Source: Microbacterium dauci (GTDB lineage: Bacteria; Actinomycetota; Actinomycetes; Actinomycetales; Microbacteriaceae). Taken from it: DNA of 64,000 bases. Positions 34,750 to 48,001 of the stretch are shown here, piece by piece. Made by a program: the position numbers and the translations under genes. Numbering within the stretch: the first letter of the stretch is position 1; every line of letters starts with the position of its first letter. The stretch is taken from NCBI RefSeq assembly GCF_030065535.1, contig NZ_JASJND010000004.1:62001-126000 (forward strand). Direction: 5' to 3'. Below the pieces are notes generated by a model. That model saw only the letters and a list, made by a program, of their open reading frames with translations. It was not told the DNA's origin and made no database searches.

Positions 34750-35331
34750 TCACGCCTCTGCCGGCGGGTGAGCGCGGTGGCATCCGTCGACGTGATCGTC
34801 GACCATGCCGCTCGACTGCATGAGGGCGTACATCGTCGTCGAGCCCACGAATCGGAAGCCGGCCTTGCGGAGTGCCTTCGACATCGCATCGGATGCCGCG
34901 GTCGTCGCCGGAACCTCTTCGAGCGAGGCCGGCCGTGGTCGGGGCTCGGGCGCGAACGACCACATGAAGGCGTCGAGCTCGCCCGGGGCCATGTCGCGCA
35001 CGAGCGCGGCGTTGCCGATCGTCGCGAGGATCTTCGCGCGGTTGCGGATGATGCCGGCATCCGCCATCAGGCGTTCGATGTCGTCGTCGCCGTAGGCGGC
35101 CACGACCTCGGGCTGGAACCCGGCGAAGACCTCGCGGAACCGCGGGCGCTTGCGGAGGATCGTGATCCACGAGAGCCCCGCCTGGAATCCCTCGAGCGAC
35201 ATCTTCTCGAAGAGCGCCCGGTCGCCGTGCAGCGGACGCCCCCACTCCTCATCGTGGTAGCGCCGGTACTCGGCGTCATCACCCACCCAGGCACAACGAG
35301 CGAGGCCGTCGGGGCCGATGCGGAGACTCAC
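34750..35331 (-). CDS. tag: DNA-3-methyladenine glycosylase I
   Basis: 193-residue base-excision enzyme that removes 3-methyladenine from alkylated DNA. Family features: RCAWVGDDAEYRRYHDEEWG at the N-terminus (zinc Cys13 and the substrate-pocket Trp/Tyr), FEKMSLEGFQAGLSWITIL, and a C-terminal HxxxCH zinc site in DDHVDGCHRAH. The GTG start at 35329-35331 has TAGCCT 6 nt upstream and no Shine-Dalgarno. It lies near the UvrA-like gene, so several DNA-damage functions cluster here. Confidence 0.95.
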   Translation of the reverse strand: MSLRIGPDGLARCAWVGDDAEYRRYHDEEWGRPLHGDRALFEKMSLEGFQAGLSWITILRKRPRFREVFAGFQPEVVAAYGDDDIERLMADAGIIRNRAKILATIGNAALVRDMAPGELDAFMWSFAPEPRPRPASLEEVPATTAASDAMSKALRKAGFRFVGSTTMYALMQSSGMVDDHVDGCHRAHPPAEA

Positions 35332-35371: not shown

Positions 35372-37483
35372 TCAGCGCTTCTTCGGCTTCAACGACTTCT
35401 CGGGCACGGGCGCTTCGCCGCGGGCCTCGAGGTCGGCGTAGTACGCGCGTGCCTCATCCTGGCGCTGCTGTTCGAGCCCCGACGCGATCGGCGCACGCAC
35501 GTGCTCGGGCTCGAAGCCGAACGCGTCGACGAGATCCTGTGCGTGGGGGCGCAGCCGCGCGCACAGCCGGTCGATGTACTTCGTGACGGCGGCCGCGCGC
35601 TGCGTCGAGAGCCGACCGTTGATGAGGTGCCACGCGAGGTGGCGCTCGATGAGGTGCAGTCCGAAGAGGTCGCGCAACCAGGTGAGCACCTGGCGGGTGT
35701 CGTCGTTCTCGGTCGCCTTCACCGCGTCCGAGAACGCCTCCCACTGCAGCAGCTCGCCGTGCGCGCGTGCCGCTTCGATGAGCTCGGCCTGGTGCCGGTT
35801 GAACAGCGCGGCGGCCTGGTCCTTCGGAAGCTTGGATGCCGGGCGGAGCGCCCCCGCGACGTCGCTGACCATCTGCTCGACGCGGTCCGACAGCAGCTCG
35901 TGCTGGTGTTCGGCGCGCAGCCCGAGTTCGACCGATCGCGCGGTCGAACCGAAGTCGGCGACCCGCTGGCCGAGGCTGCGGAGCCCCGCGCCGTGGAACA
36001 CCTTGCCCGCCGTCTGCCCCACCGCGTACTTCGCGAGCGTCGCGGCATCCGCCCCCTTGAACTGGCGGGCGAAGTCGGACAACAGCCGCTTGCCGACGAG
36101 CTGCAGGAGGACGTTGTTGTCGCCCTCGAAGGTGACGTAGACGTCGAGGTCGCTGCGGAGGCCGACGAGGCGGTTCTCCGCCATGAAGCCGGAGCCGCCG
36201 CACGCCTCGCGCGCTTCCTGCAGGGTGGCGAGCGCGTTCCAGGTGCTGAGCGGCTTCAGCGCCGCGGCGAGCGTCTCGAGGTTCTCGCGCTCCTCGGGGG
36301 TGTCGGTACGACCGCTGAAGACGCCGTCGAACGTGCGCAGCAGCTCGTCGTGCGAGAAGAACTGTGCGTAGGTCTGCGCGAGCAGCGGCAGCAGGCGACG
36401 CTGGTGCTTGCCGTAGTCGAGCAGCACGACCTCGTCGGTGCCGGCACCGGAATCGAACTGGCGGCGCTGATTGCCGTACGTGATCGCGATGTGCAGGCCG
36501 AGCGCCGAGGCGATCGTCGCCGCACCGTCGAGGGAGACGCGACCCTGCACGAGTGCGCCGAGCATCGTGAAGAACCGGCGGCCGGTGCTCTCGATCGGGC
36601 TGGAGTACGTGCCGTCCGCGGCGACGTCGCCGTACCGGTTGAGCAGGTTCGTGCGGGGGACGCGGACGTGGTCGAACGCGAGCCGGCCGTTGTCGATGCC
36701 GTTCAGGCCACCCTTGACACCGTCGTCTTCGCTCTGCACGCCCGGCAGCAGCTCGCCGTCAGCGGTGCGGATCGGGACGAAGAAGCAGTGCACGCCGTGG
36801 TTCACACCGTTCGTGATGAGCTGCGCGAAGACGGTCGCCGCCTGACCGTGGACGGCGGCGTTCCCGAGGTAGTCCTTCCACGCCGCGCGGAACGGCGTGT
36901 TGATGACGAACTCCTCGGTGGCGGGGTCGTACGTCGCCGTTGTGCCGATCGCAGCCACGTCGGAGCCGTGGCCGATCTCGGTCATCGCGAAGGCGCCGGG
37001 GAGCTTGGCATCCCGGATGTCGGCGACCCACCGCTTGTGGTGTTCCTCGGTGCCGAGCTGGAGCACCGCCGAACCGAACAGGCCCCACTGCACGCCCGAC
37101 TTGATCTGCATGCTCGGGTCGGCGAGGACGAGCTCCTCGAAGCCGGCGAGGTTGGCTCCGTTGTCGTTCAGGCCGCCGTATTCCTCGGGGAGCGCGCGAG
37201 ACGAGCCATTGTTCTGCGCGAGGAGGCGTACCTGACCCATCACGCGGTCGCGGTGCTCGGCGACCGTCTGGCCGTCGATGCGCCAGTAGGCCGGGTCTTT
37301 GATGAGCTCGCGGACCTCGCGACGGGTGTCGGCCCACGTGCCGAGCAACATCGACCCGACGGTGTCGATATCGATACGCGGCTCACCTGCTTCGGCAGCC
37401 GTGCGGGCTGCGGTCGGGGCGCCACCGGCGGGCGTGCGGCGGTTGGTGGCAGGAGTGCTGGGGCGGACGACGGTGTCGGTCAT
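35372..37483 (-). CDS. Acyl-CoA dehydrogenase/oxidase family flavoprotein
   Basis: 703 residues, the length of acyl-CoA oxidases rather than the roughly 380 of ordinary acyl-CoA dehydrogenases. The core has AMTEIGHGSDV (FAD and substrate region), a large middle beta domain, and a C-terminal helical domain with EACGGSGFMAENRL and an ACOX-like second helical half. It probably starts beta-oxidation of a fatty acyl-CoA. ATG 37481-37483 with GGAAAGG upstream is chosen. The frame runs 213 codons further upstream, but that stretch is Arg/Pro-rich noncoding translation. A TTTACG-N17-TACCGT promoter candidate lies just upstream. Confidence 0.92.
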   Translation of the reverse strand: MTDTVVRPSTPATNRRTPAGGAPTAARTAAEAGEPRIDIDTVGSMLLGTWADTRREVRELIKDPAYWRIDGQTVAEHRDRVMGQVRLLAQNNGSSRALPEEYGGLNDNGANLAGFEELVLADPSMQIKSGVQWGLFGSAVLQLGTEEHHKRWVADIRDAKLPGAFAMTEIGHGSDVAAIGTTATYDPATEEFVINTPFRAAWKDYLGNAAVHGQAATVFAQLITNGVNHGVHCFFVPIRTADGELLPGVQSEDDGVKGGLNGIDNGRLAFDHVRVPRTNLLNRYGDVAADGTYSSPIESTGRRFFTMLGALVQGRVSLDGAATIASALGLHIAITYGNQRRQFDSGAGTDEVVLLDYGKHQRRLLPLLAQTYAQFFSHDELLRTFDGVFSGRTDTPEERENLETLAAALKPLSTWNALATLQEAREACGGSGFMAENRLVGLRSDLDVYVTFEGDNNVLLQLVGKRLLSDFARQFKGADAATLAKYAVGQTAGKVFHGAGLRSLGQRVADFGSTARSVELGLRAEHQHELLSDRVEQMVSDVAGALRPASKLPKDQAAALFNRHQAELIEAARAHGELLQWEAFSDAVKATENDDTRQVLTWLRDLFGLHLIERHLAWHLINGRLSTQRAAAVTKYIDRLCARLRPHAQDLVDAFGFEPEHVRAPIASGLEQQRQDEARAYYADLEARGEAPVPEKSLKPKKR

Positions 37484-37824
37484 CACTGGCCTTTCCGAGA
37501 GCGCGAGACAGGGAAGTTCACCCTCAACGGTAGGAGTCCTCCAACGGGTCGTAAACCCTGTTGTGTACCCTGGACAAGTGCGCGGACGCCCGGCGCCCTG
37601 GCGTGTTGTGCCAGGCCTACACCGGCCGCCGGCGGCAGGGGCGCGGCATCCGCTCGGGGGCGCGTTCGGGTGGCAGCAGTTGTCGCTGGGTGAACGGTGT
37701 ACCGGCGTGTTGTACCACGTCGAGGGATGGATGCCGCGCGGCGGGCGGGGGCTGCGGCGCGCGCGGGTGTCGGTGGGGAGGAGGATGCTGAGGCGCAACG
37801 GCCGACGACGACGCGAGAGGCGCG
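37484..37824. other. 341-bp intergenic region, divergent promoters
   Basis: Lies between the acyl-CoA oxidase-type gene (minus) and the GNAT-GH16 gene (plus). Near the former is a promoter candidate TTTACG-N17-TACCGT on the minus strand. The middle has a perfect 6-bp hairpin CCTGGC/GCCAGG around GTGTTGT (about 37600-37618), and the same GTGTTGT recurs about 90 bp further on. Short open frames here lack ribosome binding sites and coding-type codon use. No tRNA or known RNA motif is seen. Confidence 0.6.
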
Positions 37825-39081
37825 ATGACGACCACGATCGAACCATGGGGCGAGGACAACCTGCCGCTGCTGGAGCGCATGAACACGCCCGAGATGACGG
37901 CGCACCTCGGGGGCCCCGAGACGCCGGCGCAGCTCGAGGACCGGCAGCAGCGCTACATGCGGGTCGCAACGCGGGGCGGGGCGATGTTCCGGATCGAGGT
38001 CGACGGCATCGCCGCGGGCGGCATCGGGTTCTGGGAGACCGACGAAGAGGGCACGCCCGCGTACGAAGCCGGGTGGAGTGTCGTCCCCGAGCTCCAGGGG
38101 CTCGGTGTCGCGGGCGCGGCACTCCGCCTGATCATCGACCAGGTGCGCCGTCGCGGCGACCGGACGCTGCTGACGGCGTATCCGGGCGTGGACAACGTGG
38201 CATCCAACGCCCTCTGCGCCCGCGCCGGATTCGAGCTGCGCGGCGAAGGCACCGAGCCCTGGCGGGGCGGGATGCTCCACTTCAACATCTGGCACCTCGA
38301 CATGTCGCCGCTCGACACGACCGGGCGGGCCGTCGATGTCGAGGAGCGGTTCACCGACGACTCGTTGGACCTGCAGCGGTGGTCGCCGTTCTACACCCCG
38401 CACTGGTCGTCGAAGGATGCCGCGGCCGCGCGGTTCGAGGTCGGTGACGGGCTGCGACTGCGCATCGACGCCGACACCCCGCCATGGGCACCCGAGTGGG
38501 ACGGTGACCTCCGGGTCTCTCACCTGCAGACCGGGCAGCGATCCGGCCCGCTCGGCTCCGGCGATGGACAGCACCGGTTCCGCCCCGACCTCGTCGTCCG
38601 CGAGTCGCAACCCGAGCAGCGGTTGTGGCTTGCGACGCACGGCGTCATCGAGGCGCGATTCTCGGCGATCCGGCATCCGGATGCGATGGTCGCGTTCTGG
38701 CCGATCGGGTTCGAGGATCGACCCGACGACTGCGGGGAGATCTGCATCGCGGAGATCTTCGGCTCGGAGGTCGAGGCAAACGGCGGGTGGGTCGGGATCG
38801 GCGTGAAGGCGCAGAATGACCCGCGACTGCGAACCGACTTCGAGAAGATCTGGATCGACGGGGACCTCACCGTGCCGCACGACTACGCGGTCGAGTGGAC
38901 CCCGGAACGCCTGCGCTTCTTCGTCGACGGCGCCTGGGTCAAGACCGTCGCGCAGACGATCGACTACCCCGTACAGCTCATGCTGGACGTGTTCGAGTTC
39001 CCGCGGTCGGACGGCGACCGCGACCTCAGCGCACTGCCGCACGTCTTCCGCGTGGAGCGGGTGCGCACCGTCACGGCGTGA
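37825..39081 (+). CDS. GNAT acetyltransferase fused to GH16-like lectin/glucanase domain
   Basis: 418 residues. The N-terminal GNAT domain (about 1-155) has the acetyl-CoA loop QGLGVAGAAL (91-100) and CARAGFELRG. A linker is followed by a concanavalin-type GH16-like domain (about 170-418) with EFPR and YAVEWTPERLRFFVDG, typical of GH16. In the catalytic loop the consensus ExDxxE reads EICIAE (Glu305, Cys307, Glu310), so the helper Asp is a Cys. No signal peptide is present, so the GH16-like part is cytoplasmic. It may bind or trim a glycan that the GNAT part acetylates. The start has GAGAGG just upstream. Confidence 0.85.
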   Translation: MTTTIEPWGEDNLPLLERMNTPEMTAHLGGPETPAQLEDRQQRYMRVATRGGAMFRIEVDGIAAGGIGFWETDEEGTPAYEAGWSVVPELQGLGVAGAALRLIIDQVRRRGDRTLLTAYPGVDNVASNALCARAGFELRGEGTEPWRGGMLHFNIWHLDMSPLDTTGRAVDVEERFTDDSLDLQRWSPFYTPHWSSKDAAAARFEVGDGLRLRIDADTPPWAPEWDGDLRVSHLQTGQRSGPLGSGDGQHRFRPDLVVRESQPEQRLWLATHGVIEARFSAIRHPDAMVAFWPIGFEDRPDDCGEICIAEIFGSEVEANGGWVGIGVKAQNDPRLRTDFEKIWIDGDLTVPHDYAVEWTPERLRFFVDGAWVKTVAQTIDYPVQLMLDVFEFPRSDGDRDLSALPHVFRVERVRTVTA

Positions 39082-39084
39082 GGG

Positions 39085-40197
39085 TCACTCGCCCCGCATG
39101 CGGTCCATCGTGGACTGGATCGCGACGGCGGCCGCTCCCCTGGCCCACGCGCGGAACCCCGAGTCGTCGACGTGGATGTCGACCGGTTCGGCCCGCGGGT
39201 CCCGACCTGCGGATGCCGCGGCCCGAACCCGGTCCTGGACGACGCTGAACAGGTTGATCCCCTCACCTGCGAGCACCACCGACGACTGCAGGCTGAGGTT
39301 CGTGGCGAGCGCGATCAGCCGGCCCAACGCGTCGCCCGCACTGCCGACGATCGCGTGCACGGCGGGATCACCGGCGGCAGCCAGCTCGAGCGTCTCGTCG
39401 TAGTCGACGGGGCGGCCGAGCGCGGCGGACACCTGTGCGGCGATCGAACCCGACGACAGCATCGCCTGCGCACACCCGCGATGCCCGTCCTGGCAGACGG
39501 GGCCGAACGGGTCGAGCGGGATGTGGCCGCCGGTACCGATCGTGGCATCCGACGTCCGGACGACCTCTCCGTCGACGACCAGCCCGTAGCCGACGCCCGC
39601 GCCGATCGTGATCGTCGCGAACCCGTCGAGCCCGCGGCCGGCGCCGAACCATCGCTCGGCTTCGGCGAGCGCGACGACGTCGTTCTCGACGCTCACCGGG
39701 ACGCCGAGCTCCGCCGCCAGGACCCCCGCGACGTCCACGTCGGCCCACTCGAGGAAGGGCGCATGCAGCGCGACACCGTCGTGGACGACACCGCCGAGGC
39801 TCACCCCGAGCGCCACGAGATCGGGCAGCGCGAGCTCGCGCACCGCGCGCGCGACGAGGGCGAGGACGGCCTCGGGCGAACGGTCGTCGATGGGCCACTC
39901 GCCGCCGGTGATCGGTTCGGCGCGAATGTCGGTGCCAACCGCGATCACCGCGTCGCCGGTGATCTTCACGCCCGCGAAGGCGCCGAGCCCCGGCGCGATG
40001 TCGAGTGGACGGGACGGGCGACCGACCGTGCCGTCGGCGACCTCGTCGAGTTCGATGAGCAGCCCCGCTTCGAGCAGCGGCTTCGCGAGGCGGGTCAGAC
40101 TCGCGGGCGAGAGCCCGAGGCGCGTCGTGAGGTCGCGGCGCGAGAGCGGCCCGTGGATGAGGACGGCGCGCGCGAGCGCGGTTTCGCTCCGGCTCAT
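39085..40197 (-). CDS. ROK-family transcriptional regulator
   Basis: 370 residues. An N-terminal winged helix (about 1-65, LSRRDLTTRLGLSPASLTRL) precedes a ROK sugar-kinase-like domain with TIGAGVGYGLVVDG. The usual CxCGxxGC zinc signature appears as CQDGHRGC. It likely represses the divergent alpha-galactoside genes until a sugar ligand binds. The start ATG 40195-40197 has GGAGG 6 nt upstream; an in-frame ATG at 40227 is less supported. Confidence 0.92.
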   Translation of the reverse strand: MSRSETALARAVLIHGPLSRRDLTTRLGLSPASLTRLAKPLLEAGLLIELDEVADGTVGRPSRPLDIAPGLGAFAGVKITGDAVIAVGTDIRAEPITGGEWPIDDRSPEAVLALVARAVRELALPDLVALGVSLGGVVHDGVALHAPFLEWADVDVAGVLAAELGVPVSVENDVVALAEAERWFGAGRGLDGFATITIGAGVGYGLVVDGEVVRTSDATIGTGGHIPLDPFGPVCQDGHRGCAQAMLSSGSIAAQVSAALGRPVDYDETLELAAAGDPAVHAIVGSAGDALGRLIALATNLSLQSSVVLAGEGINLFSVVQDRVRAAASAGRDPRAEPVDIHVDDSGFRAWARGAAAVAIQSTMDRMRGE

Positions 40198-40280
40198 TCG
40201 CACCTCCTCGCGCGGCGTTGGTTCCATATTGGCACGAATGGATGCTGTAATCCCGACGAATCCCTGCGCTAACGCGAGTC

Positions 40281-40309
40281 TTGACGTCTGAATATTTCCC
40301 TAGTAGAAC
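40281..40309 (+). promoter_or_regulatory. Leaderless promoter of the alpha-galactosidase operon
   Basis: -35 TTGACG (40281-40286), 17-nt spacer, -10 TAGAAC (40304-40309), then 7 nt to the ATG at 40317. This is the best -35/-10 pair in the window. The region is AT-rich and contains a likely ROK operator site between the divergent genes. Confidence 0.7.
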
Positions 40310-40316
40310 TAATCCC

Positions 40317-42476
40317 ATGCTCGACCACGACAATGTCGTCCCCACGTCCACCGCGTCCGCCCGCATCGCGCACCTGCGCCGCGGCGGCACGAGCCTCGTC
40401 GTCGACCTCGAGGCCCAGCCGACGCCGGTCATCGTCCACTGGGGCGCAGACCTCGGCGATGCGACCGCCGAGACGCTCGAGTCCCTCGCCACCGCGGCCC
40501 GCCCGCAGCGCGTCTCCGGCGGCCTCGACGTCACCGCCCGCCTGGGCGTGCTGACCACCGCGGCATCCGGTTGGCTCGGCACCCCGACCTTCGAAGGCCA
40601 CCGCGACGGCGCGTACGCCAGCCCGCTCTTCACCCTCCGGAACGCCTCCGTCACCGATGAGGCAATCGACCTCGCCCTCGTCGACGACCAGTCGGCGCTC
40701 ACCGCCCGCATCCGCCTGTCGATCGGCGCGAGTGGCCTCGTCCGCAGTCGGATCACGGTCCGCAACATGGGCGACTCGACCTACACGGTGCAGACGCTGC
40801 AGCCCTCGCTGCCCCTGCCCTGGGAGGCGACCGAGATCCTCGACACCACCGGCCGCCACCTGCGTGAGCGCTCCGGCCAGCGCCGCGACCTGACCTTCGG
40901 CACGCACCTGCGCGAGAGCCGCCGCGGTCGCCCCGGAGCGGATGCCACGCTCCTCCTCGCCGCCGGCGTGCCGGGCTTCGGCCACGAGCGCGGTCAGGTG
41001 CACGGCGTGCACCTCGCGTGGAGCGGCAACCAGCGCACCTTCGCGGAGCGCGTGCCCACGGGCGAGTCGTTCCTCGGCGGCGGCGAGCTGTACCTGCCCG
41101 GCGAGATCCGCCTCGCTCCCGGTGAGGAGGTCGCCTCGCCCGAGCTGCTCGGCTCGTGGGGCGACGGCCTCGACGAGCTGGCATCCCGCTTCCATGAGGA
41201 GTGGCGCGCGCGTCCGCAGCACCCCTCGCGGCCCCGCCCGATCACGCTCAACACGTGGGAGGCGGTCTACTTCGACCACCGCCTGCCCAAGCTCGTCGCC
41301 CTCGCCGACGCCGCCGCCGAGATCGGCGTCGAGCGCTACGTGCTCGACGACGGCTGGTTCCGCCACCGTCGCGACGACCACGCCGGCCTCGGCGACTGGT
41401 ACGTCGACGACACCGTCTGGCCCGACGGACTCCACCCCATCGCCGACCACGTCGTCGCCAAGGGCATGGAGTTCGGCCTCTGGTTCGAGCCCGAGATGGT
41501 CAACCCCGACAGCGACCTCGCCCGCTCGCACCCGGAGTGGATCCTCCGCGGCCGCGACGAGCTGCCGCCGTCCGCCCGCCAGCAGCAGGTGCTGAACCTC
41601 GCACACCCCGGTGCGTATGACTACATCCTCGGGGTCATCTCGGCGATCCTCGCCGAATACCCGATCTCGTACATCAAGTGGGATCACAACCGCGACCTCG
41701 TCGACGCTGCCGCCGGCCCCGGCGGTGCGGCGCAGGTGCATGCGCAGACCCGCGCCGTCTACCGGTTGCTCGACGAGCTGAAGGCGACCCACCCCGGCCT
41801 CGAGATCGAGAGCTGCGCCTCGGGCGGCGCCCGCGTCGACCTCGGCATCCTCGACCGCACCGACCGCATCTGGACGAGCGACTGCCTCGACCCCGTCGAG
41901 CGGCTCGAGAACCAGCGCAACACCGCGCTCGTCGTGCCGCCCGAGATGATGGGCATGCACCTCACCACCCCGCACGTGCACTCGACCAAGCGCACCGTCT
42001 CGCTCGCGATGAGCGGCGCAGTCGCCCTCTTCGGTCACTTCGGTATCGAGTGGGACGTCACGACCCTGTCCGACGAGGATGCCGCCACCGTCGGCGCCTG
42101 GGTCGCGCTCGCCAAGCGCGTGCGCCCCCTGGTCGCGACCGGCCGCCTCGTGAACGCGAACGTGGCCGACCCCGGCCTCGACGTCCGCGGCGTGGTCGCG
42201 GCGGACGCGGCATCCGCGTTCTTCACCATCGCGCAGACGCAGACGCTCATCTCGTCGCCGGCCGGCCGTGTGCGACTCCCGGGGCTCGACGCCGACCGCA
42301 CGTACCGCGTCCGCCTCGTCACGCCGGGCGGCATCGTGCAGGACCCCGCGCAGTCGCCGCTCGAGTGGGCCCACCACGAGACCGTCCTCACCGGCCGGCA
42401 GCTCGCCGTCGCCGGCATCCGTCCCCCCGTCCAGCAGCCGCAGCAGGCGGTCGTCATCGAGATCACCGCTGCGTAA
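40317..42476 (+). CDS. Alpha-galactosidase (GH36)
   Basis: 719 residues, cytoplasmic (no signal peptide). It hydrolyses alpha-1,6-galactosides such as melibiose and raffinose. The nucleophile is Asp456 in YIKWDHNRD; the acid/base is Asp522 in WTSDCLD. DDGWF earlier in the barrel is also typical of GH36. ATG 40317 is preferred because the promoter -10 ends 7 nt upstream; an in-frame TTG at 40281 is actually part of the -35 box. It is the first gene of the transport operon. Confidence 0.95.
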   Translation: MLDHDNVVPTSTASARIAHLRRGGTSLVVDLEAQPTPVIVHWGADLGDATAETLESLATAARPQRVSGGLDVTARLGVLTTAASGWLGTPTFEGHRDGAYASPLFTLRNASVTDEAIDLALVDDQSALTARIRLSIGASGLVRSRITVRNMGDSTYTVQTLQPSLPLPWEATEILDTTGRHLRERSGQRRDLTFGTHLRESRRGRPGADATLLLAAGVPGFGHERGQVHGVHLAWSGNQRTFAERVPTGESFLGGGELYLPGEIRLAPGEEVASPELLGSWGDGLDELASRFHEEWRARPQHPSRPRPITLNTWEAVYFDHRLPKLVALADAAAEIGVERYVLDDGWFRHRRDDHAGLGDWYVDDTVWPDGLHPIADHVVAKGMEFGLWFEPEMVNPDSDLARSHPEWILRGRDELPPSARQQQVLNLAHPGAYDYILGVISAILAEYPISYIKWDHNRDLVDAAAGPGGAAQVHAQTRAVYRLLDELKATHPGLEIESCASGGARVDLGILDRTDRIWTSDCLDPVERLENQRNTALVVPPEMMGMHLTTPHVHSTKRTVSLAMSGAVALFGHFGIEWDVTTLSDEDAATVGAWVALAKRVRPLVATGRLVNANVADPGLDVRGVVAADAASAFFTIAQTQTLISSPAGRVRLPGLDADRTYRVRLVTPGGIVQDPAQSPLEWAHHETVLTGRQLAVAGIRPPVQQPQQAVVIEITAA

Positions 42477-42510
42477 CCACGCGGCATCCGCGCAAGGAGG
42501 CGCACGCACC

Positions 42511-43791
42511 ATGAGATCCAGAACCACCCGCACCGCCGTCGCGGGCGCACTCCTGGTCGGGCTCACGCTCGGCATGGGTGCGTGCGCCGCCGGCGACACC
42601 CGGACGAAGCTCGACTTCTTCCAATTCAAAGGGGAGGCGCTCGAGGACTTCAACGAGATCATCGCCGCCTTCGAAGCCGAGAACCCCGACATCGACGTGG
42701 TGCAGAACCAGGTCGCCGACTCGGAGACCCTCATCCGGACCCTGCTCGTCAAGGACCGCACCCCCGACGTCATCACGCTGAACGCCAACGGCAACTTCGG
42801 CAAGCTCGCCGAGGCCGGCGTCTTCTACGACTTCAGCGACGAGCCGGTGCTCGACACCATCAACCCGGGCGTGCAGGAAATCCTCGCCGACCTCGGCACC
42901 GCGCCCGGCGAAGTGAACAGCCTCGGCTACGTCAACAACGCCAACGGCATCATCTACAACCGCGAGATCTTCGAAGCCGAAGGGCTCGAGGTCCCCGAGA
43001 CGTGGGATGAGCTCATCGCGCTGTGCGAGACGCTGACGGAGCGGGGAATCACCCCGTTCTCGACGTCGCTCGCCGAGAACTGGACCGCCATGCCGTCGTG
43101 GAACGGCATCGGCGCGTACACCTCGCAGGACGGCTTCTTCGACGCGATGCGCGAAGAGGGCGACACCGTCGGCGCCGACTCGCCCGTGTCGTTCGAGAAG
43201 GACTTCCCCTCGGCGATGGAGATGCAGGCGCAGCTCTTCGAGTACTCGCAGGAGGGCTACCGCGGCGCCTCGTACGACGACAGCACGTCGCTGTTCGCGA
43301 ACGGCGGTGCCGCCATGATGCTGCAGGGCATCTGGGCGCTCAGCCCGGTGAAGGCGGTCAACCCCGACATCGACGCGGCGATCTTCCCCTACCCGGTGCC
43401 CGAGAACCCGGCCGACCGCATGCTCGTCTCCGGTGTCGACGTGACCGTCACGATGGCGCGGAACACCCCGCACAAAGAAGAGGCACTCCGCTTCATCGAG
43501 TACCTCTTCCAGACCGACGTCATCGAGGAGTTCGCGGCATCCCAGAACATGGTGCCCTCGGTGACCGACGCCGAACTCAGCGACGACCCGGCACTCCAGT
43601 CGATCGCGCCGTACTTCGACGCCGGTCAGATCACCGGCTTCATCGACCACCAGGTGCCGGGCGCGATCCCGCTCGTCGGCACCGTGCAGCAGTTCCTCTA
43701 CGACGGTGACACCGATCGGGCGCTGCGCACCCTCGACAACGAGTGGCGCAAGGTCGCCGCCCGCACCATCACGCCGGACCAGGAGGACTGA
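42511..43791 (+). CDS. Sugar ABC transporter substrate-binding lipoprotein
   Basis: 426 residues. A signal peptide ends in lipobox GMGAC (Cys25). The mature protein is a family 1 solute-binding protein of the MalE/MsmE/RafE class. It should bind alpha-galactosides at the outer face of the membrane. AAGGAGG at 42494-42500 lies 10 nt before the ATG. It is 34 nt after the alpha-galactosidase stop. Confidence 0.95.
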   Translation: MRSRTTRTAVAGALLVGLTLGMGACAAGDTRTKLDFFQFKGEALEDFNEIIAAFEAENPDIDVVQNQVADSETLIRTLLVKDRTPDVITLNANGNFGKLAEAGVFYDFSDEPVLDTINPGVQEILADLGTAPGEVNSLGYVNNANGIIYNREIFEAEGLEVPETWDELIALCETLTERGITPFSTSLAENWTAMPSWNGIGAYTSQDGFFDAMREEGDTVGADSPVSFEKDFPSAMEMQAQLFEYSQEGYRGASYDDSTSLFANGGAAMMLQGIWALSPVKAVNPDIDAAIFPYPVPENPADRMLVSGVDVTVTMARNTPHKEEALRFIEYLFQTDVIEEFAASQNMVPSVTDAELSDDPALQSIAPYFDAGQITGFIDHQVPGAIPLVGTVQQFLYDGDTDRALRTLDNEWRKVAARTITPDQED

Positions 43792-43792
43792 G

Positions 43793-44716
43793 ATGGCCAT
43801 CGTCACCACCTCTACGACGCGGACCCAGGCGGATGCCGCACCGACCCCGCGCAAGCGCTCCAAGCTCGCCCCGCGCGCCTACTACTGGTTCGTCTGGCCG
43901 GCCGTCCTCGCATTCGCCGCGTTCCACACCCTGCCCGTGCTCATCGGCGTGTTCTACAGCTTCACGAACTACGCCGGCTACGGGAACTGGGACTTCGTCG
44001 GGTTCGCCAACTACGCGAACATCTTCCGCGACGACCGCATCCTGCAGGCGTACGGGTTCTCGTTCCTGTTCGCAATCGTCGCGACGATCCTGACCAACGC
44101 GTTCTCGCTCGCGATCGCGCTCGGCCTCAACGCGAAGATCCGGGCCAGGAACTTCTGGCGCGGCGTCTACTTCGTGCCGTACATCCTCGCGGTGCTCGTC
44201 GTCGGCTACGTGTTCCAGTTCCTGTTCTCGAACTCGCTGCCCAAGATCCTCAGCGGCATCCCGCTGTTCGCGGACAACATCCTCACGAACCCCGACTGGG
44301 CGTGGACGGCCGTCGTGGTGCTCGCGGTCTGGCAGGCCTGCGCGTTCTCGATCATCATCTACCTCGCGGGGCTCCAGACGATCCCGGGCGACATCTACGA
44401 GGCGGCATCCATCGACGGCGCCGGCCCCGCGCGCCAGTTCCGTTCCATCACGTTCCCGCTCATCAGCGCCTTTTTCACGATCAACGTCGTGCTGAGCCTG
44501 AAGGGCTTCCTGCAGGTCTTCGACCCGATCATCGCCCTCACCAACGGCGGACCGGGCACGTCGACCGAATCGGTGACGATGCTCATCTTCCGCGGCGGCT
44601 TCTCGGGCGGCGAGTTCGCCTACCAGACCGCCAATGCGGTGCTCTTCTTCATCGTCATCACCATCGTCTCGCTCCTCCAATTCCGGGTCCTTCAGCGCAG
44701 AGAGGCCGACTTCTGA
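43793..44716 (+). CDS. Sugar ABC transporter permease (MalF/MsmF type)
   Basis: 307 residues, six membrane segments. The EAA loop that docks the ATPase is EAASIDGAGPARQFRSITFP. The ATG at 43793-43795 follows the binding-protein stop by 1 nt, with AGGAGG just upstream inside the end of that gene. It overlaps the next permease start (TGATG). Confidence 0.95.
   Translation: MAIVTTSTTRTQADAAPTPRKRSKLAPRAYYWFVWPAVLAFAAFHTLPVLIGVFYSFTNYAGYGNWDFVGFANYANIFRDDRILQAYGFSFLFAIVATILTNAFSLAIALGLNAKIRARNFWRGVYFVPYILAVLVVGYVFQFLFSNSLPKILSGIPLFADNILTNPDWAWTAVVVLAVWQACAFSIIIYLAGLQTIPGDIYEAASIDGAGPARQFRSITFPLISAFFTINVVLSLKGFLQVFDPIIALTNGGPGTSTESVTMLIFRGGFSGGEFAYQTANAVLFFIVITIVSLLQFRVLQRREADF

Positions 44717-45910: not shown

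Positions 45911-48001
<2,091 letters not shown>

Follow-up and report, generated by a model that had tools for sequence, protein, structure and literature searches.

A conserved Microbacterium fusion of a GNAT acetyltransferase and a GH16-fold domain with a cysteine in the GH16 motif

The gnat-gh16 gene and its surroundings

We examined a stretch of 64,000 nucleotides of Microbacterium dauci DNA (the window) and detected one intact open reading frame that joins a GNAT acetyltransferase to a GH16-like domain. The gene, its parts and the genes around it are the following.

34750..35331, minus strand: 3-methyladenine DNA glycosylase, slot marker (Pfam; synteny)
35372..37474, minus strand: acyl-CoA oxidase, divergent, upstream slot marker; start codon approximate (Pfam; synteny)
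37815..37820, plus strand: GAGAGG, resembling a ribosome-binding site, ahead of the ATG (read from the sequence)
37825..39081, plus strand: gnat-gh16 gene, intact reading frame with ATG start, 418 residues, without secretion signal
37825..38301, plus strand: GNAT acetyltransferase domain, residues 1-159 (Pfam; model; RimL and PA3944 folds)
38095..38112, plus strand: predicted acetyl-CoA loop QGLGVA (Q-x-x-G-x-A), residues 91-96 (alignment of fused rows; consensus in the accessible part of PMC3814719)
38302..38331, plus strand: inter-domain joint, residues 160-169 (length 10 in each of the 31 fused rows of alignment A2)
38332..39078, plus strand: GH16-fold jelly-roll domain, residues 170-418 (Pfam; fold match to 1ups)
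38737..38754, plus strand: E-x-C-x-x-E motif (EICIAE), residues 305-310, with Glu305, Cys307 and Glu310 (putative roles, by analogy with GH16)
39085..40227, minus strand: ROK-family regulator, convergent, ending 3 bases past the fusion gene (Pfam)
40281..42476, plus strand: GH36 alpha-galactosidase (melibiase) (Pfam)
45911..47692, minus strand: RecQ-type helicase, downstream slot marker (Pfam; synteny)

Pfam recognised both halves above its curated cut-offs, through Acetyltransf_3 (residues 4-137, E 7.5e-12) and Acetyltransf_1 (residues 38-136, E 1.2e-9) in the N-terminal half and Glyco_hydro_16 (residues 271-384, E 8.5e-7) in the C-terminal half, which bears out the first-pass annotation of one GNAT and GH16-like reading frame. 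The 418-residue protein matched no NCBIfam family over its cut-off. The structure prediction that the same annotation had suggested gave both folds confidently: a whole-chain model based on 95 aligned relatives had a mean pLDDT of 96.3 and a pTM of 0.93, and the placement of the two halves relative to each other was confident as well. A fold computed from the single sequence (pLDDT 32) was set aside.

Conservation of the fusion at one genomic slot

The fusion of an acetyltransferase and a GH16-fold domain is real and evolutionarily conserved. Both halves were matched without internal stop in 38 of the 295 Microbacterium genomes, that of M. dauci included (one of the 38 matches begins at residue 25), and one more fusion (L084, 64% identity) was found outside the genus but within the family. 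A frameshift or an assembly error, raised at first pass as what might have joined two genes, is excluded because the fusion recurs in these genomes, at a conserved slot and with a joint of exactly 10 residues in each of the 31 aligned rows. Purifying selection acts on the two halves alike: over 12 close, partly overlapping pairs, dN/dS ranged from 0.12 to 0.22 in the GNAT half and from 0.10 to 0.25 in the GH16 half, and these low values indicate that both are maintained by selection.

We found a single slot in three states within Microbacterium, holding the fused gene, the GH16 gene alone or the GNAT gene alone. The divergent acyl-CoA oxidase gene adjoined the slot or lay a few genes off in 20 of 20 fused stretches, and likewise at all nine loci with a solo GH16 gene (L042-L050) and all seven with a lone GNAT (L055-L061) of the genus. 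The DNA glycosylase, RecQ and often a formate-THF ligase gene also recurred, which makes it a housekeeping slot. At two loci (L070 and L076) a second marker gene stood between the acyl-CoA oxidase gene and the GH16-bearing gene, and one lone-GNAT locus (L059) had a gap of 3.5 kb at the slot. More distant GH16-like loci (L052-L054) and a fragment (L051) were found off the slot in the genus.

In quick trees of the two halves, a single GH16 clade with support 100 united the fused rows with ten solo ones, of which nine come from the genus and one from Cellulomonas. The solo rows were dispersed inside this clade, with at least 10 label changes on the tree, 5 of them forced by starred branches, and six lone GNATs were nested among the fused ones in the GNAT tree. 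The simplest account would be an old fusion followed by several losses of one half or the other. When 48 GNAT rows were compared by tblastn with 16 solo loci, no GNAT remnants turned up ahead of the solo GH16 genes; with three GNAT-bearing control loci added, the same search matched 3 of 3 controls and 0 of 16 solo loci.

Upstream of the fusion gene, 11 of the 35 fused loci, where some copies overlap, carry a further GNAT that belongs to a separate subfamily (42-48% identity; L015, L018, L019, L022 and L026-L032). Its presence, together with the occurrence of either half without the other at the same slot, would fit a history in which a neighbouring GNAT gene became fused to a GH16-like gene and the two unrelated activities share a chain, each with its own job. 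We regard this as rather unlikely, given the exact length of the joint in 31 of 31 fused rows, the confident placement of the halves in the model and the presence of the fusion in 38 of 295 genomes.

The GNAT half

The model and the structure matches agree on a GNAT fold for the N-terminal half. RimL (1s7f) matched it with a TM of 0.75 by target length at an identity of just 21-23%, and PA3944 (7kyj) with a Z of 19.9 over 166 residues. Their acceptors, a ribosomal protein for RimL and a polymyxin analogue for PA3944 (accessible part of PMC8072286), are not transferable to the GNAT half. The loop QGLGVA follows the acetyl-CoA loop consensus [Q/R]-x-x-G-x-[G/A] given in the accessible part of PMC3814719, and we take Asn124 for the probable equivalent of the conserved CoA-contacting Asn described there. 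Position 124 was Asn in 48 of 48 GNAT rows; among the fused rows, Q91 was kept in 30 of 31, and G94 and A96 in all 31.

Human O-GlcNAcase, a hydrolase of family GH84, carries its GNAT part at the C-terminus, whereas that of the fusion is N-terminal. In the literature searched it was the only other single chain that combines a hydrolase with a GNAT fold (accessible part of PMC3814719); its GNAT part is described there as a pseudo-enzyme without acetyl-CoA loop or binding, whereas the GNAT half of the fusion keeps the loop.

The GH16-like half and its nearest relatives

Both Pfam and the fold match assign the beta-jelly-roll fold of GH16 to the C-terminal half. The nearest solved structure was 1ups, the GlcNAc-alpha-1,4-Gal-releasing endo-beta-galactosidase of Clostridium perfringens, a secreted GH16 enzyme. 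Residues 164-418 matched it with a Z of 31.3 and an rmsd of 2.0 over 239 residues at 27% identity (VIA-align); the next entry had a Z of 22.6, and the GH16 entries listed other than 1ups lay at about 20-22.6. Foldseek also ranked 1ups first, as did the sequence search, both for the single protein (E 2.2e-18) and for the profile (E 1.8e-29). The stretches YLPHW and W-P-DG are common to 1ups and the GH16-like half, and the matched 1ups chain is without a GNAT part.

The reading as an unusual glucanase, one of the two options offered at first pass, is disfavoured, as 1ups stood above every glucanase among the listed matches, by sequence and by fold. The fusion also differs from 1ups in its motif, which is E-I-D-I-L-E in 1ups and E-I-C-I-A-E (residues 305-310) here; thus the Asp motif of the GH16_8/endo-beta-galactosidase group is absent from the fusion protein. 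In its accessible part, PMC6827312 maps the GH16 subfamilies, gives the motif as E-X-D-X-(X)-E and notes members with lost catalytic residues, and the same part makes no mention of a Cys-type motif. Since the central Asp of this motif is missing from the fusion protein (Cys in 109 of 112 domains), the fusion is best kept apart from ordinary GH16 enzymes.

A clade with Cys in the GH16 motif

The first-pass annotation had correctly read EICIAE with Cys307 for the middle Asp and both Glu present, and had treated the Cys as a change of this one protein. It proved to be clade-wide. We counted the motif in 174 aligned rows, from which 3 rows of fewer than 120 residues, 2 with a gap at the motif and 51 identical copies were removed; the remaining 118 comprised 112 strong domains (E below 1e-60) and 6 weak ones. 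The third letter of the motif was Cys in 109 of the 112 distinct strong domains, Thr in 2 and Asp in 1, a count that leans to the Cys type through its sample (10 of the 11 rows in the search profile A1 carry Cys, at most 30 loci were taken per search, 30 of 34 strong family genomes are included, and Asp-type relatives are few). All 42 distinct fused domains had Cys (38 from the genus genomes, L084 and three named Microbacterium loci). The six weak matches had Asp (5) or Leu (1). Rows removed from the count included an Arthrobacter plasmid row (L163) and the stop-bearing L116, both with Cys, and L169, which has a gap and Asp by eye. Based on these comparisons, Cys307 is a signature of a leaderless clade, as judged from its sequences, and not a peculiarity of the window protein.

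The two catalytic Glu of GH16 were retained almost throughout, at the Glu305 position in 111 and at the Glu310 position in 112 of the 112 strong domains. The GH16 half also has invariant columns that include Trp186, Trp194, Trp221 and Trp292 (78 of 78 rows). This near-invariance of the Glu bears on a further possibility, that the GH16-like half is a non-enzymatic sugar-binding module which directs the acetyltransferase to a glycan or acts as a sugar sensor. The assisting Asp is absent in 111 of 112 domains (109 with Cys), and GH16 relatives without one or both catalytic residues are binding proteins according to the accessible part of PMC6827312, both of which would suit such a module. Given the retained Glu pair, and the occurrence of the GH16-like half without GNAT at nine same-slot loci of the genus and at solo loci in other genera, we consider a binding module unlikely, and with it the first-pass idea of a glycan-binding module that guides acetylation.

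In a quick tree that included Asp relatives, the Cys rows and a few exceptions (81 rows) fell behind one branch with support 96; this tree used one fused row in four, left the window row out, kept the motif columns and was rooted on two long rows. The branch spans Actinomycetota, Deinococcus deserti and a Chloroflexi fragment with Leu. In the genomes sampled the clade is patchy, with members in 34 of 249 family genomes at E 1e-78 or better (M. dauci and one other genome of the genus included) and in 6 of 396 phylum genomes at E 7.3e-87 or better (again counting these two). The D. deserti Cys-type protein had no match in the phage collection. One gene nested in the Cys clade (L115, the same gene as L159 and L165) reads V-V-D-V-M-E, with the Asp present and the first Glu changed to Val.

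We found no paper on a GNAT-GH16 fusion or on a Cys in the GH16 motif in the open literature (subscription papers being mostly beyond reach), and we know of no activity for any member of the clade. As far as these searches reached, the fusion and the Cys clade are uncharacterised, in agreement with the initial statement that no characterised protein of this layout was known.

Leader sequences

The fusion protein is without a leader, because the GNAT domain forms its very N-terminus. None of the 47 solo rows had a leader either (best score 1.47), as judged by a simple hydrophobicity scan, in place of SignalP, from possible start codons; the absence of a signal peptide had been noted at first pass and thus extends to the solo relatives. 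By the same rule, four Asp relatives, from Streptomyces (L161 and L167), Subdoligranulum (L162) and Enterococcus raffinosus (L169), had leader-like N-termini with scores of 2.0 to 2.77. These secreted relatives combine the leader-like N-terminus with the motif Asp and longer C-termini, that of L161 being lectin-like (Pfam), and L161 aligned with the Deinococcus Cys-type protein at 31% identity. The D. deserti Cys-type protein had no score in the leader scan, which also gave no leader for L115 despite its Asp.

Cys therefore tracks the cytoplasm in this sample, and one shared ancestor could explain the pattern: the clade and the leader state change together once, so the cause is inseparable from descent. 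This limits the case for a functional Cys, a thiol that would tune or switch the active site (redox, altered pKa) or aid transglycosylation and would have been adopted to suit the reducing cytoplasm. Such a role would accord with the coincidence of Cys and leader absence (0 of 47 solo rows against the scores of the Asp relatives) and with the single branch behind which the Cys rows lie. Besides shared descent, the two strong members with Thr, the leaderless one with Asp and the Chloroflexi fragment with Leu speak against it, and we hold it to be very unlikely.

Neighbouring genes

In the window, a ROK regulator, the GH36 alpha-galactosidase and ABC transporter parts stand beside the fusion gene; the ROK, GH36 and ABC sugar-transport genes occupy 39085-44716, between the fusion gene and RecQ. 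This set was found, among the annotated neighbours of the synteny loci compared, in the window and one other locus (L062) only. The clade member of D. deserti is adjoined by LacI and sugar ABC genes, and a ROK-like regulator (by eye) adjoins a Cys-type GH16 gene in two overlapping frames on the Arthrobacter plasmid (L163:5980-6754). Sugar-uptake or sugar-regulator genes thus lie beside members in D. deserti, the Arthrobacter plasmid and the window.

No operon partner was constant in the genus or in other genera. Of 30 genus stretches (the window, 20 fused and 9 same-slot solo), 8 had a GH3 glycosidase gene adjoining or near the fusion or solo GH16 gene (L043, L045, L046, L066, L072 and L076-L078); its orientation was divergent in L076 and convergent in the other 7, and it therefore forms no operon. 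No partner was common to more than two loci in 20 stretches of other genera (the GH16 gene was uncalled in L149 and L158). In two genera, a solo Cys-type GH16 gene is immediately preceded by an acyl-CoA thioesterase gene of the same orientation (L141:5266-6132; its counterpart in L143). At a locus outside Microbacterium, an unrelated GNAT gene (L142:5472-5999, Pfam E 3.6e-14) precedes a solo Cys-type GH16 gene by 52 bases, both being read in the same direction, and the product of this GNAT gene gave no match to the fused-GNAT profile.

Proposed function

We consider it an even chance that the fusion protein is a two-domain cytoplasmic enzyme, in which a retaining-type GH16-fold glycosidase with Cys for the assisting Asp is combined with a working acetyltransferase; we infer both the catalysis and the substrates. 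By analogy with GH16, Glu305 would be the nucleophile and Glu310 the acid/base that donates and accepts the proton; Cys307, predicted to lie next to the nucleophile, would substitute for the assisting Asp. The GH16-like half would cleave or transglycosylate small galactose-type or amino-sugar glycosides, imported or intracellular, and the N-terminal GNAT half would depend on acetyl-CoA to acetylate an amine of the same metabolite or of a related one, the two steps presumably sharing a pathway.

Several observations bear on this two-domain enzyme. The retention of both Glu points to an enzyme, and the C-terminal half, having the GH16 fold, may function like a GH16 enzyme. Loss of the Asp may slow or abolish hydrolysis or favour transglycosylation; in the accessible part of PMC3584854, GH16 has three catalytic residues, E-D-E, on one sheet, the middle Asp among them, so a Cys in its place could lower or abolish hydrolysis. 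The kinship with 1ups suggests, by analogy, a galactose-type substrate, the absence of a leader suggests an internal or imported one, and the neighbours hint at sugars. Against the sugar reading stand the thioesterase of L141 and L143, which gives no hint of sugars, and the rarity of the ROK/GH36/ABC set. Moreover, the slot can hold either half by itself, so the two functions may belong to separate pathways.

A wider scenario is possible, though we advance it only tentatively: a cytoplasmic branch of the GH16 fold would have swapped the Asp for a catalytically important Cys on moving inside the cell, and in Microbacterium it would have been built into a bifunctional hydrolase-acetyltransferase that carries out two steps on one amino-sugar metabolite.

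A clade with a fixed Cys, both Glu and no leader found is a natural experiment on the weight of the Asp and on its substitution by a thiol. In the fusion, a single bacterial chain holds a hydrolase-type fold together with an acetyltransferase that seems intact, whereas the corresponding part of human O-GlcNAcase is dead, and the genomes with a single half at the same slot provide clean controls.

Finally, scattered fragments of GH16-like domains that resemble decayed copies were seen in two further genomes (G433 C4; G504 C4 and C6).
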